From the NCBI RefSeq assembly GCF_040581405.1, contig NZ_CP137157.1, positions 2,065,001 to 2,129,000 on the forward strand: 64,000 bases of DNA, given 5' to 3'. Shown here in pieces: positions 2,279 to 5,893 of this stretch. The position numbers and the translations under genes are program-made. Position 1 is the first letter of the stretch. The number at the start of each line of letters is the position of its first letter. Under the pieces are notes generated by a model. That model was not told the origin of the DNA, did no database searches, and saw only the letters and a program-made list of their open reading frames with translations. The stretch comes from Komagataeibacter sucrofermentans DSM 15973. GTDB lineage: Bacteria; Pseudomonadota; Alphaproteobacteria; Acetobacterales; Acetobacteraceae.

Positions 2279-3979
2279 CTAGACCGTACTGATCACGATC
2301 TCCACAAGGTTGGGCCGCCCAGACGCCATCGCGGCCTCAATGGCCGGTGCAATGTCGGCTGCCCGCGTGATCTGCCGGGCCTCCAGCCCGTATGAAGTCG
2401 CCATCGCCTGATAATCGATGGGCGGATCGCACAGATCCATCGCCAGAAAATTCCCCTGCCGGGCCGAGACATAATGCGTCTGCCCGCGCATGAAGCCCTT
2501 GAGCACGTTATATTCGCGGTTGTTCATCACCACGAATGTCACGGGCAACCGCTCGTGTGCGGCCGTCCAGATCGCCTGCGGGGAATAAAGGGCCGCGCCA
2601 TCACCCACAAGGCAGACCACCGGCTCGCGCCCCAACCCGAGCGAGGCCCCCACCGCAGCGGGCATGCCCCAGCCCAGCGCCCCTCCGCGCAGGAAGGAAT
2701 ACTGCGCTGCCCAGTCACTGTTGAGGAACATGCGCGTGTAGGACGACGTGGCGATTGCCTCATCCACAATGGCAACCTGCGGGCCAATGGCGCGCACGGC
2801 CTCGTGGGCGGCAACACAGGGGGCGATGACCGCATCATCCTGATGGGCCGCCACCAGTTCTTCGGCCTCGAGGCGCCTGCGGGTGCGGGCCGCCACAACT
2901 TTTTCGCGCGCGGCGACATGGGCCGCGCGGTTCGGCTCCGTCTCGCGCTGCAACAGCGGCAGCAGCACGTCGAGCGAGGCGCGGATATTACCCACGAGGG
3001 AGAGTGGCGTCTGGAACGTGCGGCCAAGGTCACGCGCATCAGCCGAGACCTGATAGACCGCGCAGCCCGGTGGCACGGGCGAACCTTCGGAATAAAGGAT
3101 GGTGATGAGCGACTTGCCGCCCAGCGCGAAAATCGCATCATAATCCGCAAGGCGGCTGGCGATATCGGTAGCGCGCGTGGGCATGTTGCCTGCCCAGAGC
3201 GGGCACGACGTGGCGAACGGAATGCGTGAGGGCCATGACGCGCCATAAACCGGCGCCCCCAGCATGTCAGCCACGGCAGCGACCTGTGCTGCGGCATCCG
3301 CCCCATGCACCTCGTCGCCCGCGATGATGGCCAGCCGGCCCGGCGCAATGCCAGCCAGCGCGCGGGCCAGTTCCGGCAGCCCGCCCGCTATGGCCTCGCG
3401 GTTGATGACAGACGGGCTGCCGATGTCGATATCGCTGGCCTCCTCCATCACATCCATGGGCAGCGACAGGAAAACCGGCCCCGAAGGTGCCGCCATCGAA
3501 TCGTTGAAGGCCCGGCGCACCAGCACGGGCAACTGGTCGGCATGCAGCACTTCCTGCGCCCATTTCACGGCCGGGGTGGCGATGCTGACCAGATCGCCAA
3601 ACAGCAGCGGATCGGAAATGGTATGCCGCGAATCCTGCTGGCCCGCCGTCACCACCAGCGGTGTCTGCGATACGCTGGCATTGAGCAGGTTGCCCATGCC
3701 ATGCCCCAGCCCGCCTGCCGTATGCAGGTTGAGAAAGCCGGGACGGCCTGCCGCCTGGGCATAGCCATCGGCCATGGCCACCACGCTGGCTTCCTGCAGG
3801 GCCAGGATATATTTCAGGTCCGGGCGGCGCTGCAGGGCATCGATCAGGGGGAGTTCCGTCGTGCCGGGATTGCCAAAGATATAGCGAACCCCTTCACTTT
3901 CCAGAATTTCCAGAAGGATGTCGGCGCCGCGCCGTCCGCCTGTTCCCCGTGCCGCGACCTCAAGCGGTGTAATGGCCAT
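2279..3979 (-). CDS. mdlC: ThDP-dependent decarboxylase, benzoylformate decarboxylase-like
   Basis: This 566-residue protein has the three-domain layout of thiamine-diphosphate decarboxylases. The N-terminal domain shows FGNPGTTELP (35-44), the cofactor-activating Glu in ALQEASVVA (Glu63) and NLHTAGG, whose His86 matches the catalytic His70 of benzoylformate decarboxylase. The C-terminal ThDP motif GDG...NN spans about 459-487. The nearest characterised family I recognise is benzoylformate decarboxylase; acetolactate-synthase-like or other 2-ketoacid decarboxylases are alternatives, so the substrate is uncertain. The ATG at 3979 has AGGGA six bases upstream. No mandelate-pathway partners are adjacent. 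Its promoter region contains a Fur-type palindrome about 100 bases from the start codon, so iron control is possible. Confidence 0.85.
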   Translation of the reverse strand: MAITPLEVAARGTGGRRGADILLEILESEGVRYIFGNPGTTELPLIDALQRRPDLKYILALQEASVVAMADGYAQAAGRPGFLNLHTAGGLGHGMGNLLNASVSQTPLVVTAGQQDSRHTISDPLLFGDLVSIATPAVKWAQEVLHADQLPVLVRRAFNDSMAAPSGPVFLSLPMDVMEEASDIDIGSPSVINREAIAGGLPELARALAGIAPGRLAIIAGDEVHGADAAAQVAAVADMLGAPVYGASWPSRIPFATSCPLWAGNMPTRATDIASRLADYDAIFALGGKSLITILYSEGSPVPPGCAVYQVSADARDLGRTFQTPLSLVGNIRASLDVLLPLLQRETEPNRAAHVAAREKVVAARTRRRLEAEELVAAHQDDAVIAPCVAAHEAVRAIGPQVAIVDEAIATSSYTRMFLNSDWAAQYSFLRGGALGWGMPAAVGASLGLGREPVVCLVGDGAALYSPQAIWTAAHERLPVTFVVMNNREYNVLKGFMRGQTHYVSARQGNFLAMDLCDPPIDYQAMATSYGLEARQITRAADIAPAIEAAMASGRPNLVEIVISTV

Positions 3980-4074
3980 GCTGTTCCCTGCCTGCTTTGA
4001 AGGTGTGGGTCATGGCAACACGTTTTAGGGTGCGGGTCCAGCAGCAGCGGGGGAAGCGGGCGTCAATTTTTATC

Positions 4075-4103
4075 TTGATAATAATAATTATTATCATTAT
4101 CAG
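4075..4103 (+). promoter_or_regulatory. Candidate sigma-70 promoter overlapping the Fur box
   Basis: TTGATA (4075-4080, five of six matches to -35) is followed after 17 bases by TATCAG (4098-4103, four of six matches to -10). The Fur palindrome occupies the spacer, a classic repressor position. A start site near 4109 would be expected. Confidence 0.5.
4077..4101. promoter_or_regulatory. Fur-type operator
   Basis: GATAATAATAATTATTATC (4077-4095) is a perfect 9-1-9 palindrome that differs from the classical Fur box GATAATGATAATCATTATC at only two positions; a further ATTATC (4096-4101) adds another hexamer half. It lies between the divergent decarboxylase gene and a rightward terminator, so it could control either direction. 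Naming Fur as the regulator is inference from the motif. Confidence 0.75.
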
Positions 4104-4108
4104 AACTG

Positions 4109-4207
4109 TCACCCGTGGGTTCCCCGACAGATTCCCGACCGTCGATTTCCCAACCCTTCCCACGGAAACTTACGGCATCACCTGCACCCCGGTGATGCCG
4201 TTTTTTT
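4109..4207 (+). ncRNA. Candidate iron-regulated small RNA (about 98 nt)
   Basis: A rightward promoter with an embedded Fur box is followed about 100 bases later by a strong rightward intrinsic terminator, with no convincing open reading frame between and no upstream plus-strand gene that would need that terminator. The predicted RNA has a 5' stem (CCGUGGG 4113-4119 with CCCACGG 4159-4165). It encloses a pyrimidine-rich loop with repeated CCC motifs (UUCCCC 4120-4125, AUUCCC 4131-4136, AUUUCCC 4145-4151) and CCCUUCCC at 4154-4161, which could pair with Shine-Dalgarno sequences. The arrangement resembles Fur-repressed sRNAs such as RyhB, PrrF and NrrF in logic; I see no sequence homology to them. 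Confidence 0.55.
4172..4207 (+). terminator. Rho-independent terminator
   Basis: An 11-bp perfect stem (ACGGCATCACC / GGTGATGCCGT) with an 8-base loop is followed by seven T residues on the plus strand. The minus strand lacks a T-run, so it acts rightward. Confidence 0.85.
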
Positions 4208-4286
4208 ATGACAGGCCAGAACAGGCCCGTGCCGCATGGCAGCCCAACCGTACATCTTGTGATTGACCACCCGCCACAACGCGAAG

Positions 4287-4781
4287 ATGATACACGCTTA
4301 CGCGACCATGAAAGTACGCCCCTTGCCTGCCGACAGTCCCGCGCCACTGACTGCCCAGCCAACCGCCCCTGGCACGCAGGCGGATCATGACCCGGCACTC
4401 CCCGTCATTATCGAGACCCTGCGCCATGATGGCATCATTACCGCCCGCCAGGTCGAGGCGGCACGGTTCTGGGCCACGGATTACCGGATTGGCGTGCTGG
4501 GGCTTGAAGATCCGCTGTTTGACCGGACATCGCTCGGCCTGTCGCGCCGCCCGCTCAACGGGCGGATCGGGTCGATCAACCGGTATCGCCACATTCACGA
4601 TATTATCGGGGCGCGTTACGAGCGCGTGCTCATTGCTGCGATGATCGACCAGCGCCCCCTGCCTGAACTCGCCCGCCATGCCCACCATGACCCGCAGCAT
4701 ATGGGGCAGGTGATCGCCCTGCTGCTCGATTTCCTGACCCGGCATTACGATGCCATGCCCGGTCATCTGTGGCGCGGCTGA
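4287..4781 (+). CDS. Hypothetical protein, possibly DUF6456-like
   Basis: From the ATG at 4287 the product has 164 residues; a TTG at 4263 and an ATG at 4308 are alternative starts, and none has a strong ribosome binding site. The first 40 residues are proline- and alanine-rich and probably disordered. The remainder is helical: ITARQVEAARFWATDYRIGVLG, a segment with RYRHIHDIIGARYERVLIAAMIDQRPLPELA, and a C-terminal VIALLLDFLTRHYDAM. The ITARQ-EAA opening and the helix with a late aliphatic LLDFLTRHY resemble the alphaproteobacterial DUF6456 domain, often found in putative helix-turn-helix proteins; this is a loose resemblance and the function is unknown. Confidence 0.6.
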   Translation: MIHAYATMKVRPLPADSPAPLTAQPTAPGTQADHDPALPVIIETLRHDGIITARQVEAARFWATDYRIGVLGLEDPLFDRTSLGLSRRPLNGRIGSINRYRHIHDIIGARYERVLIAAMIDQRPLPELARHAHHDPQHMGQVIALLLDFLTRHYDAMPGHLWRG

Positions 4782-4825: not shown

Positions 4826-4867
4826 AGCGTTTTAAAAAAATACCGCCCTTTCTTGCGAAAAGGCGGC
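4826..4867. repeat. Intergenic palindromic repeat copy 1, terminator of glk
   Basis: Read on the minus strand, the glk transcript meets GCCGCCTTTT-loop-AAAGGGCGG followed by seven T residues. The GCCGCC/GGCGGC hairpin is the core of the repeat family seen at 8270, 28346, 35444, 58002, 59459 and 63444. The flanking GAAGCGTTTT (4824-4833) is a remnant of the second hairpin of the family. Confidence 0.75.
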
Positions 4868-4918
4868 ATCAGGACGCTGTTATTATTTTTTATCAGGCAG
4901 CCCTTTCCGGGCTGGCTG

Positions 4919-5893
4919 TCAGTCTTGGCGGTAAGCCTCGGCAAAGGCGGCTGCCGCACCGAGCAGGCCGGGCTGCGGATAGGTAATCAGCTTCACCGGC
5001 ATTTCCGACATCATGCCCTCGAACCGGCCCTTGGCCACGAAGCGTTCGGCAAAGCCGGAATTGGGCAGGTGCTTGGCCAGGCGCAGCCCAAGGCCGCCTG
5101 CAATCACCACGGCGCTGCCGCCCTGCGCCAGCGCAAGATCGCCCGCCACGGTGCCCAGGCTGAGGCAGAAGCGCTCAAGCGCTGCGGCCGCCACGGGGTC
5201 GGAGCCTTCCAGCGCCATGGTCCACAGAGCCTTGTCATCACGCGCCTTGACCGAGAGTTCCCCCATTTCGGCAATCGCCTCATACAGGTTCAGCAGGCCC
5301 GGCCCGGACACCACGCGCTCGACCGACACGCGGCGGTAACGGCGGCGCAGCACGGTCAGGATCCGGTCTTCCAGCTGGTCGAGCGGCGAGAAATCGATAT
5401 GACCACCCTCGGTCTCGCACACGAAGTAACCATTCTTGCGCCGCACGATGTAAGCCGAGCCCAGCCCCGTGCCCGGCCCCACCACGGTGGTCACACCCTG
5501 CTCGGGCAGCGGAATGTCAGGCCCGCAGATATGCTGGAGGCTGTCCACGCCCACCTGGGCCACGGCATGGGCCACCGCGCCGAAGTCATTGACCAGGATC
5601 AGCTCGTCCACCCCCAGCTTGACCGGCAGCCACGCAGGCTGGATCACCCACGGGTTGTTGGTCAGCTTGAGGATATCGCCCTTGATCGGGCACGCCACGG
5701 CAATGCCGGCCGCCTTGGGCAGCGGGCGGTTGACCACGCGGGCAAAGGCTTCCCACGCCAGCTGCAGGCTGGCGTGATCGGCACATTTCAGGGTCGTGGC
5801 CTCCCCCAGCGTGACGACACGGCCCTGGTCTACCTGGGCAATGGCAAACCGCGCATGGGTTCCACCAATGTCAACTGCTACGATCTCTTTCAT
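4919..5893 (-). CDS. glk: Glucokinase
   Basis: Glk phosphorylates glucose with ATP in the cytoplasm. The 324-residue protein matches the bacterial Glk (ROK-unrelated, E. coli type) family in length and motifs: the phosphate-1 loop DIGGTHARFA at residues 8-17, LTNNPWVIQP, the catalytic Asp in VNDFGAVAHA (about residue 102), the glycine motif VVGPGTGLGSAYI, and ETEGGHIDFSP. An ATG at 5893 has GGAG about 11 bases upstream. A small hairpin (CAGCCC/GGGCTG near 4897-4914) and then the repeat-type terminator follow the stop. It stands alone, with the intergenic repeat on one side and 139 bases to the next small frame on the other. Confidence 0.93.
   Translation of the reverse strand: MKEIVAVDIGGTHARFAIAQVDQGRVVTLGEATTLKCADHASLQLAWEAFARVVNRPLPKAAGIAVACPIKGDILKLTNNPWVIQPAWLPVKLGVDELILVNDFGAVAHAVAQVGVDSLQHICGPDIPLPEQGVTTVVGPGTGLGSAYIVRRKNGYFVCETEGGHIDFSPLDQLEDRILTVLRRRYRRVSVERVVSGPGLLNLYEAIAEMGELSVKARDDKALWTMALEGSDPVAAAALERFCLSLGTVAGDLALAQGGSAVVIAGGLGLRLAKHLPNSGFAERFVAKGRFEGMMSEMPVKLITYPQPGLLGAAAAFAEAYRQD

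Follow-up and report, generated by a model that had tools for sequence, protein, structure and literature searches.

A predicted Fur-controlled small RNA of Komagataeibacter and related acetic acid bacteria with complementarity to sdhC and acnA

The window analyzed here, a stretch of 64,000 nucleotides (G000:C1:2065001-2129000) from a genome of 3.44 Mb, very probably holds the gene of a Fur-repressed, trans-acting, iron-sparing small RNA (sRNA), one of two copies in that genome. The promoter box, a stem, the terminator, and a 12-nt core of the RNA are conserved, and the complementarity of the core to sdhC is found across genera. A preliminary description, made from the window sequence alone, had proposed an sRNA of the RyhB type. 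Conservation, the fold, boxes of the same types at fur and Fe2+ transport genes, and matches to sdhC and acnA all support that interpretation. The features on which the argument depends are as follows.

4075..4103, + strand: promoter with embedded Fur-type operator TTGATAATAATAATTATTATCATTATCAG, identified from sequence; the operator core is conserved
4109..4207, + strand: predicted small RNA, copy 1, about 99 nt from a predicted start; supported by conservation, fold, and covariance models R1 and R2
4113..4119, + strand: 5' strand of stem P1, pairing with 4159-4165; supported by 43 sequences
4125..4144, + strand: inner hairpin P2, in which CGAC (4125-4128) pairs with GUCG (4141-4144) and CCCGACC lies in the loop
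4134..4143, + strand: acnA-matching segment CCCGACCGUC, complementary with one G-U to acnA codons 2-5 (GACGGUUGGG)
4140..4151, + strand: 12-nt core CGUCGAUUUCCC, complementary with one G-U to sdhC mRNA from -20 to -9 (GGGAAAUUGACG)
4159..4165, + strand: 3' strand of stem P1; supported by 43 sequences
4172..4207, + strand: intrinsic terminator, an 11-pair stem (4172-4201) followed by a U-tail (seven T)

Structure and conservation of the RNA

We infer a start at position 4109 and hence a length of 98 to 99 nt. The closed 5' stem and the strong rightward terminator that had been described were both found, as P1 and as the 11-pair stem with its seven T. Open reading frames (ORFs) overlap the RNA stretch, none of them gene-like. 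Folding of the RNA from 4109 to 4210 gave -35.0 kcal/mol; shuffles averaged -20.0 (z, -5.3), and none of 200 equaled it. The sequence thus appears to specify a short, structured, self-terminated RNA, one of the marks of Fur-controlled iron-sparing sRNAs as a class.

In an alignment of 43 sequences, 98.7% of the P1 cells are paired and five of the seven pairs have changed on both sides; the stem reads CCGUGGG/CCCACGG in copy 1 and UCACGGC/GCCGUGA in the second copy of the same genome; P1 is maintained through compensatory changes. The figure for P2 is 91.5%, with the outer pair broken in 14 of the 41 sequences that have letters there. Across the whole structure, 94.3% of cells are paired and 13 of 22 pairs changed on both sides, values that 0 of 500 shuffles reached in either case. 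The covariation score was 0.314, which likewise none of the 500 shuffles attained. Of five measures of covariation, one did not exceed the shuffles: further pair types numbered 26, against 26.1 in shuffles (346 of 500 reached the value). This alignment (A3) was built without structure, and the structure was then set by hand on the same sequences; slid controls partly favor it because it was set after the sequences had been seen. An earlier alignment (A2), in which the stem of the second copy was mis-registered, was replaced by A3. Sequence conservation sits between the two P1 strands, in the inner hairpin and the core. All 12 core columns were invariant in the first alignment (20 sequences), and some members of the wider set differ.

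Positions 4060-4215 were searched in 40 genomes, our own included. Nearly the whole stretch was recovered from 17 of 18 same-genus (Komagataeibacter) relatives, and in the 21 more distant genomes no match was longer than some 30 nt. The preliminary description had set its reading a test, that related genomes should keep the promoter, the stem, and the terminator, and all three are conserved there. A second copy of the RNA lies at G000:C1:1990411-1990518. The sole same-genus relative without copy 1 (G005) carries the second copy type.

Covariance model R2, built from the 43 sequences, matched 38 of 397 Acetobacteraceae genomes at an E value of ≤0.01. Thirty-two genomes of five genera matched at ≤1e-6: 14 Komagataeibacter, 12 Gluconacetobacter (g59), 4 Novacetimonas (g89; one record is still named Gluconacetobacter entanii), 1 member of g26 (G043), and 1 of g47 (G150). 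These genomes supplied most of the sequences in the model, and matches to those arise by construction. Six matches above 1e-6 were excluded from the 32 (G098, G114, G178, G187, G230, and G284; inspection covered G114, G178, G187, and G230). Matches of model R1 in G178, G115, G020, G398, G220 (second place), and G172, with E values from 5e-5 to 0.01, were inspected and rejected as terminator look-alikes. R1 matches in this range were also obtained in G319, at a second place in G256, and at a third in G014. The genus of G150 had matches at an E value of ≤1 in 12 of 41 genomes, at 17 places. Among the 11 of these places inspected, only those of G150 and G409 look genuine, the latter kept for its Fur-like box.

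A decayed-looking second RNA copy with an altered core was also seen in G399 (L244:1608-1722, + strand), with a normal-looking Fur-type box upstream.

Predicted pairing with sdhC and acnA

The core CGUCGAUUUCCC complements GGGAAAUYGACG, located 20 to 9 nt upstream of the sdhC start. The gene was chosen as a textbook target, and all 11 RNA-bearing genomes of a first set carried CAGGGAAATYGACGAGACGACCATG at the sdhC start. The segment GGGAAATYGACG (20 to 9 nt before the ATG) complements the core; the match is perfect in the Gluconacetobacter members of that set and includes one G-U in Komagataeibacter and Novacetimonas. Extended to 48 RNA copies from 33 genomes, the comparison gave a pairing run of at least 12 at the sdhC start for 45 copies; the 33 did not include G004, G007, G012, G015, and G017, five Komagataeibacter members that carry copy 1. 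In G043 the longest contiguous run at sdhC is 7 (180 of 200 shuffles reach 7), G409 has a run of 11 at another place (39 of 200 reach 11), and the second copy of G399 has a run of 10 (31 of 200 reach 10).

Ranked by contiguous pairing minus opening costs, sdhC came first among 381 gene starts of its own genome for both RNA copies, at -11.9 and -11.0 kcal/mol net. The starts were called via a length/GC3 rule in the window and 20 about evenly spaced stretches (approximately 464 kb), and the rank stands against 380 other starts and is not blind, because the stretch 2770001-2790000 was chosen with the place of sdhC known. Up to one mismatch from the core complement, 24 sites were found in the genome (10 for a reversed-pattern control). 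Two are the RNA genes themselves, and otherwise only sdhC retains full pairing, via G-U. Plain duplex energies for a 159-nt sdhC region of the same genome were no better than those of shuffles (71 and 139 of 200 reach them), and such whole-region energies were replaced by contiguous, accessibility-corrected pairing. Support for sdhC therefore comes from contiguous, accessible pairing.

In 16 family genomes with no convincing RNA, the site is absent, and the two RNAs of our genome give sdhC runs of 6 to 10 only, a contrast that partly reflects phylogeny because these genomes belong to other genera (G398 to that of G150). The 5' region of sdhC is conserved across about 60 nt anyway, and the acnA site falls within a coding start that is itself conserved, so that conservation of the target sites is not specific proof of pairing.

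The acnA start ATGAAGACGGTTGGG has a 10-nt match to CCCRACCGUC in four of six genomes (G000, G009, G220, and G150), a partial one in G206, and none in G043. Net pairing energies there of -9.5 and -9.2 kcal/mol would rank fourth and third in the 381-start list, acnA being scored with a looser run limit than the background (6 versus 7 nt). This was a directed test of a small gene set (acnA, leuC, bfr, dps, fur, and the neighbors of both copies), in which only acnA scored; pairing was not notable at the starts of bfr, dps, fur, and leuC and was weak with the flanking thiamine-diphosphate (TPP) enzyme gene, with ORF 4308, and with the gene that follows copy 2. A further mark of the class is complementarity to the sites where translation of iron-using enzymes begins, seen here in sdhC and acnA. 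The loop had been said to carry CCC motifs able to pair with Shine-Dalgarno sequences. That idea stands for one of them, whose 12-nt match covers the ribosome-loading region of sdhC, but CCCRACC matches the acnA coding start rather than a Shine-Dalgarno sequence.

An iron-responsive sRNA might instead act mainly on other targets (outer-membrane receptors, as RusT does, or many contacts of CCC with Shine-Dalgarno sequences), with sdhC a minor one. We consider this unlikely. The scored gene starts do cover only about 464 kb of the genome, further CCC motifs exist, and the next-best start, at -10.9 kcal/mol, is close to sdhC; against this, sdhC is the top start for both copies, and conservation along the RNA is highest in the core.

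Pairing with sdhC also bears on how the RNA has changed. In the diverged genome G150 the usual core is lost, and a run of 15 nt, equaled by 0 of 200 shuffles, pairs the RNA with its own sdhC at a site that spans the start codon. Net pairing of these two is -19.8 kcal/mol, compared with -11.9 in our genome, and swapped partners give -5.9 and -6.4; the RNA and its sdhC target have changed together in G150. The same RNA keeps CCCAACCGUC for acnA. Both sides are richer in G/C in G043, where the RNA has UCCCCC for UUUCCC and the site has GGGGGA for GGGAAA, a co-change that is only suggestive because the contiguous run there is short and does not reach significance. In copy 2 of G010, the single G-U with sdhC becomes A-U.

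Promoter and probable link to iron

The rightward promoter that had been described, TTGATA-N17-TATCAG, was found, with the -35 hexamer at 4075-4080 and the -10 candidate at 4098-4103 on the + strand. A palindrome of 19 bp had been placed in its spacer; a perfect inverted repeat, TGATAATAATAATTATTATCA, is indeed embedded there, but it measures 21 bp (10-1-10) and spans 4076-4096. Two perfect 10-1-10 repeats occur in the window, compared with 11 summed across 30 window shuffles, and just 2 of 5,000 shuffles of 4060-4110 contain one. Taken by itself, the inverted repeat is weak evidence; it is raised above chance by its conservation in 17 of 18 same-genus relatives. CTTG is present at the -35 position in 18 of 18 copy-1 loci, the window counted (one of the two extractions was anchored on CTTG itself and the other was not). 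The operator core is nearly constant across these loci and the -10 hexamer is poorly fixed.

Copy-1 promoters carry CTTGATAATGATAATNATTATCATTATCA-like boxes. Those of second copies mostly carry TTGCAATTGATATTCNTTTGCAATA-like boxes at a similar distance to the RNA, with more variants in Gluconacetobacter. An apparent Fur-type operator is kept in promoters of both types, as the class of Fur-controlled iron-sparing sRNAs would require. The search with 4060-4215 also returned short operator-like matches in G002, G007, and G017, and an operator-like match in another family (L021, from G031) adjoins a TonB-plug receptor gene. The pattern TGATAATN5ATTATCA, for which the wrong spacing had been chosen, matched nothing in our genome.

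Promoter matrices were scanned over the window, the 20 stretches, and six smaller loci of the same genome (approximately 0.48 Mb), the fur locus included on purpose. The best matches were both RNA promoters, followed by a site just upstream of fur (L081), which scored 33.1 bits with the matrix of copy-2 promoters; the next matches outside the sRNAs scored 10.9 and 8.6 bits. In two same-genus relatives, a copy-1-like box lies beside a PF10634 (Fe2+ transport) gene. Iron-related genes adjoin 25 of the 34 examined loci that are not of the copy-1 type, dps in 18 and bfr, bfd, or fur in 7 others, and in 9 the flanking DNA examined has none of these.

At L081:668-1381 (- strand), a protein gene (DLSSSERLLVW...) is divergent from fur across the Fur-type box. 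This protein was also seen at L059, L060, L064, L068, L069, and L071, and in Gluconacetobacter it is found again next to the RNA, in the vicinity of bfr, dps, or fur.

Fur of Gluconacetobacter diazotrophicus is reported to complement an E. coli fur mutant (PMC9368920), so that classical boxes should be read. Control of the promoter by another regulator of the Fur family, or by a metal other than iron, seems to us distinctly unlikely. Room for it is given by the three Fur-family genes of our genome, two nearest Fur and one nearest Zur (below NCBIfam cut-offs and above those of Pfam), but the same types of box occur at fur and Fe2+ transport genes, and dps, bfr, bfd, and fur are the neighbors.

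Flanking genes

The gene to the left (2279-3979, - strand) encodes a TPP enzyme with Pfam TPP_enzyme domains, for which the nearest NCBIfam model is benzoylformate decarboxylase, under its cut-off. To the right, ORF 4308-4781 (+ strand, 157 amino acids [aa]) has no Pfam or NCBIfam match; it is conserved beside copy 1 in all 18 loci examined, at 62 to 100% identity, and all 18 loci, the window among them, share the order TPP enzyme-RNA-ORF 4308. Farther right, terminator-like hairpins on both strands (4839-4881) lie between ORF 4308 and a leftward gene (4919-5893, - strand) that is glucokinase-like, as judged by eye.

In 26 of the 34 non-copy-1 loci, the RNA is followed on the same strand by the gene for a conserved protein of about 325 aa (for example, L061:2542-3516, + strand), to which neither Pfam nor NCBIfam has a matching model; the match to this gene is split in two in L060 and L071. 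The gene mostly starts 23 to 31 nt past the terminator (57 nt in G150), which leaves little room for a promoter of its own, and it is probably expressed through read-through from the Fur-type promoter. The arrangement invites the view that the element acts mainly in cis, as a leader under Fur control whose terminator sets how much transcription continues into the gene behind it. We find this very unlikely as the main role, because copy 1 is followed, after about 100 nt, by the unrelated ORF 4308, the flanking DNA examined around the Gluconacetobacter copies L044-L047, L049, L050, and L054 holds no gene of the 325-aa kind, and the core matches sdhC in trans. The roles of sRNA and leader could coexist in copy 2, and the ancestral form may have been double-purpose, an sRNA that was also the terminated leader of a Fur-controlled gene.

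That the operator serves the divergent TPP enzyme gene and the terminated RNA is incidental is extremely unlikely: the operator does lie about 100 nt upstream of that gene, and a weak promoter-like site on the minus strand overlaps the operator, but the second copies, which lie far from this TPP enzyme gene, retain the box and the RNA with similar spacing, and the stem and core of the RNA are conserved.

Discussion

We propose that the RNA described here is a Fur-controlled, iron-sparing regulator. When iron suffices, Fur-Fe(II) would occupy the operator inside the promoter and keep the RNA off. Under iron scarcity, transcription would proceed as far as the RNA's own terminator, whose U-tail would suit Hfq; an hfq gene is present in the genome. 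Two overlapping segments of the RNA would then come into play, CCCRACCGUC pairing with the opening codons of the aconitase gene acnA and CGUCGAUUUCCC with the ribosome-loading region of sdhC, the first succinate dehydrogenase gene. Pairing would block translation of both, and two large iron consumers would be lowered.

Acetic acid bacteria live on membrane-bound enzymes rich in heme and Fe-S clusters, and iron rationing therefore bears on the production of vinegar, gluconate, and cellulose. The sections covered of the G. diazotrophicus iron transcriptome sequencing (RNA-seq) paper mention sdh and acnA a single time each, for their predicted Fur boxes, and do not list them among changed transcripts; in its main text, "sRNA," "small RNA," and "non-coding" never occur (PMC9368920). 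The RNA would give Gluconacetobacter a second possible route from iron supply to sdh and acnA, beside the Fur boxes directly predicted there (PMC9368920). Finding a Fur-boxed sRNA with sdhC and acnA matches in another alphaproteobacterial family also makes the question raised by Vogt et al. testable. We give even odds to the hypothesis that acetic acid bacteria independently evolved a Fur-controlled iron-sparing sRNA, in a class for which the literature covered showed none under Fur, and that it co-evolves with sdhC as its chief target, the pairing segment of G150 having been rebuilt against a shifted site.

Rfam covariance models gave no match at or above gathering score in the whole window and five related loci, and RyhB of Enterobacteria (RF00057) was not among the matches at E values up to 10. 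The best match below threshold was CcsR1 (RF02791; a stress-induced RNA with a conserved CCUCCUCCC motif), at 21.9 bits compared with a gathering score of 65.3, and the PrrF model (RF00444) scored 17.7 bits compared with 90; scores this low argue against membership in those families as defined. The preliminary description knew of no such RNA in acetic acid bacteria, and in agreement with this, a Fur-controlled sRNA of Acetobacteraceae was not among the matches listed from the open-access literature, a body of text mostly outside subscription papers.

Known systems share parts of this design. CcsR1 resembles the RNA in the C-rich loop ahead of a terminator stem; it belongs to stress control, whereas the promoter here is of the Fur type, and its CCUCCUCCC motif is absent from the RNA sequence here. 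PrrF1 and PrrF2 of Pseudomonas are two related Fur-controlled copies with iron-sparing targets, and our genome likewise has two related copies, though not in tandem. FsrA, NrrF, and IsrR are Fur- or iron-controlled sRNAs whose C-rich segments act on mRNAs of iron enzymes; the C-rich segments are shared, but these RNAs belong to other bacterial groups, and the Rfam searches here gave no match to them at gathering score. The classic targets of RyhB include sdh and aconitase. RusT of Caulobacter, as described in the sections covered of its report, is an iron-starvation-induced sRNA of 118 nt that acts with Hfq and largely targets membrane transporters (PMC11005374). It is alphaproteobacterial, like the RNA here, which would likewise respond to iron starvation, but it is under NtrYX rather than Fur, has transporter targets, and lies at another locus. 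RyhB, in the parts of the literature covered, is a Fur-repressed, iron-sparing, Hfq-using sRNA (PMC11005374, PMC11475020). The logic of a Fur-repressed iron-sparing sRNA appears to be common to both, in a different sequence, in another bacterial class, and with no Rfam match here. The kind of device, RyhB-like, is known; as an RNA family, and under Fur in Alphaproteobacteria, it looks new, and it would do a job that unrelated RNAs do in other bacteria.
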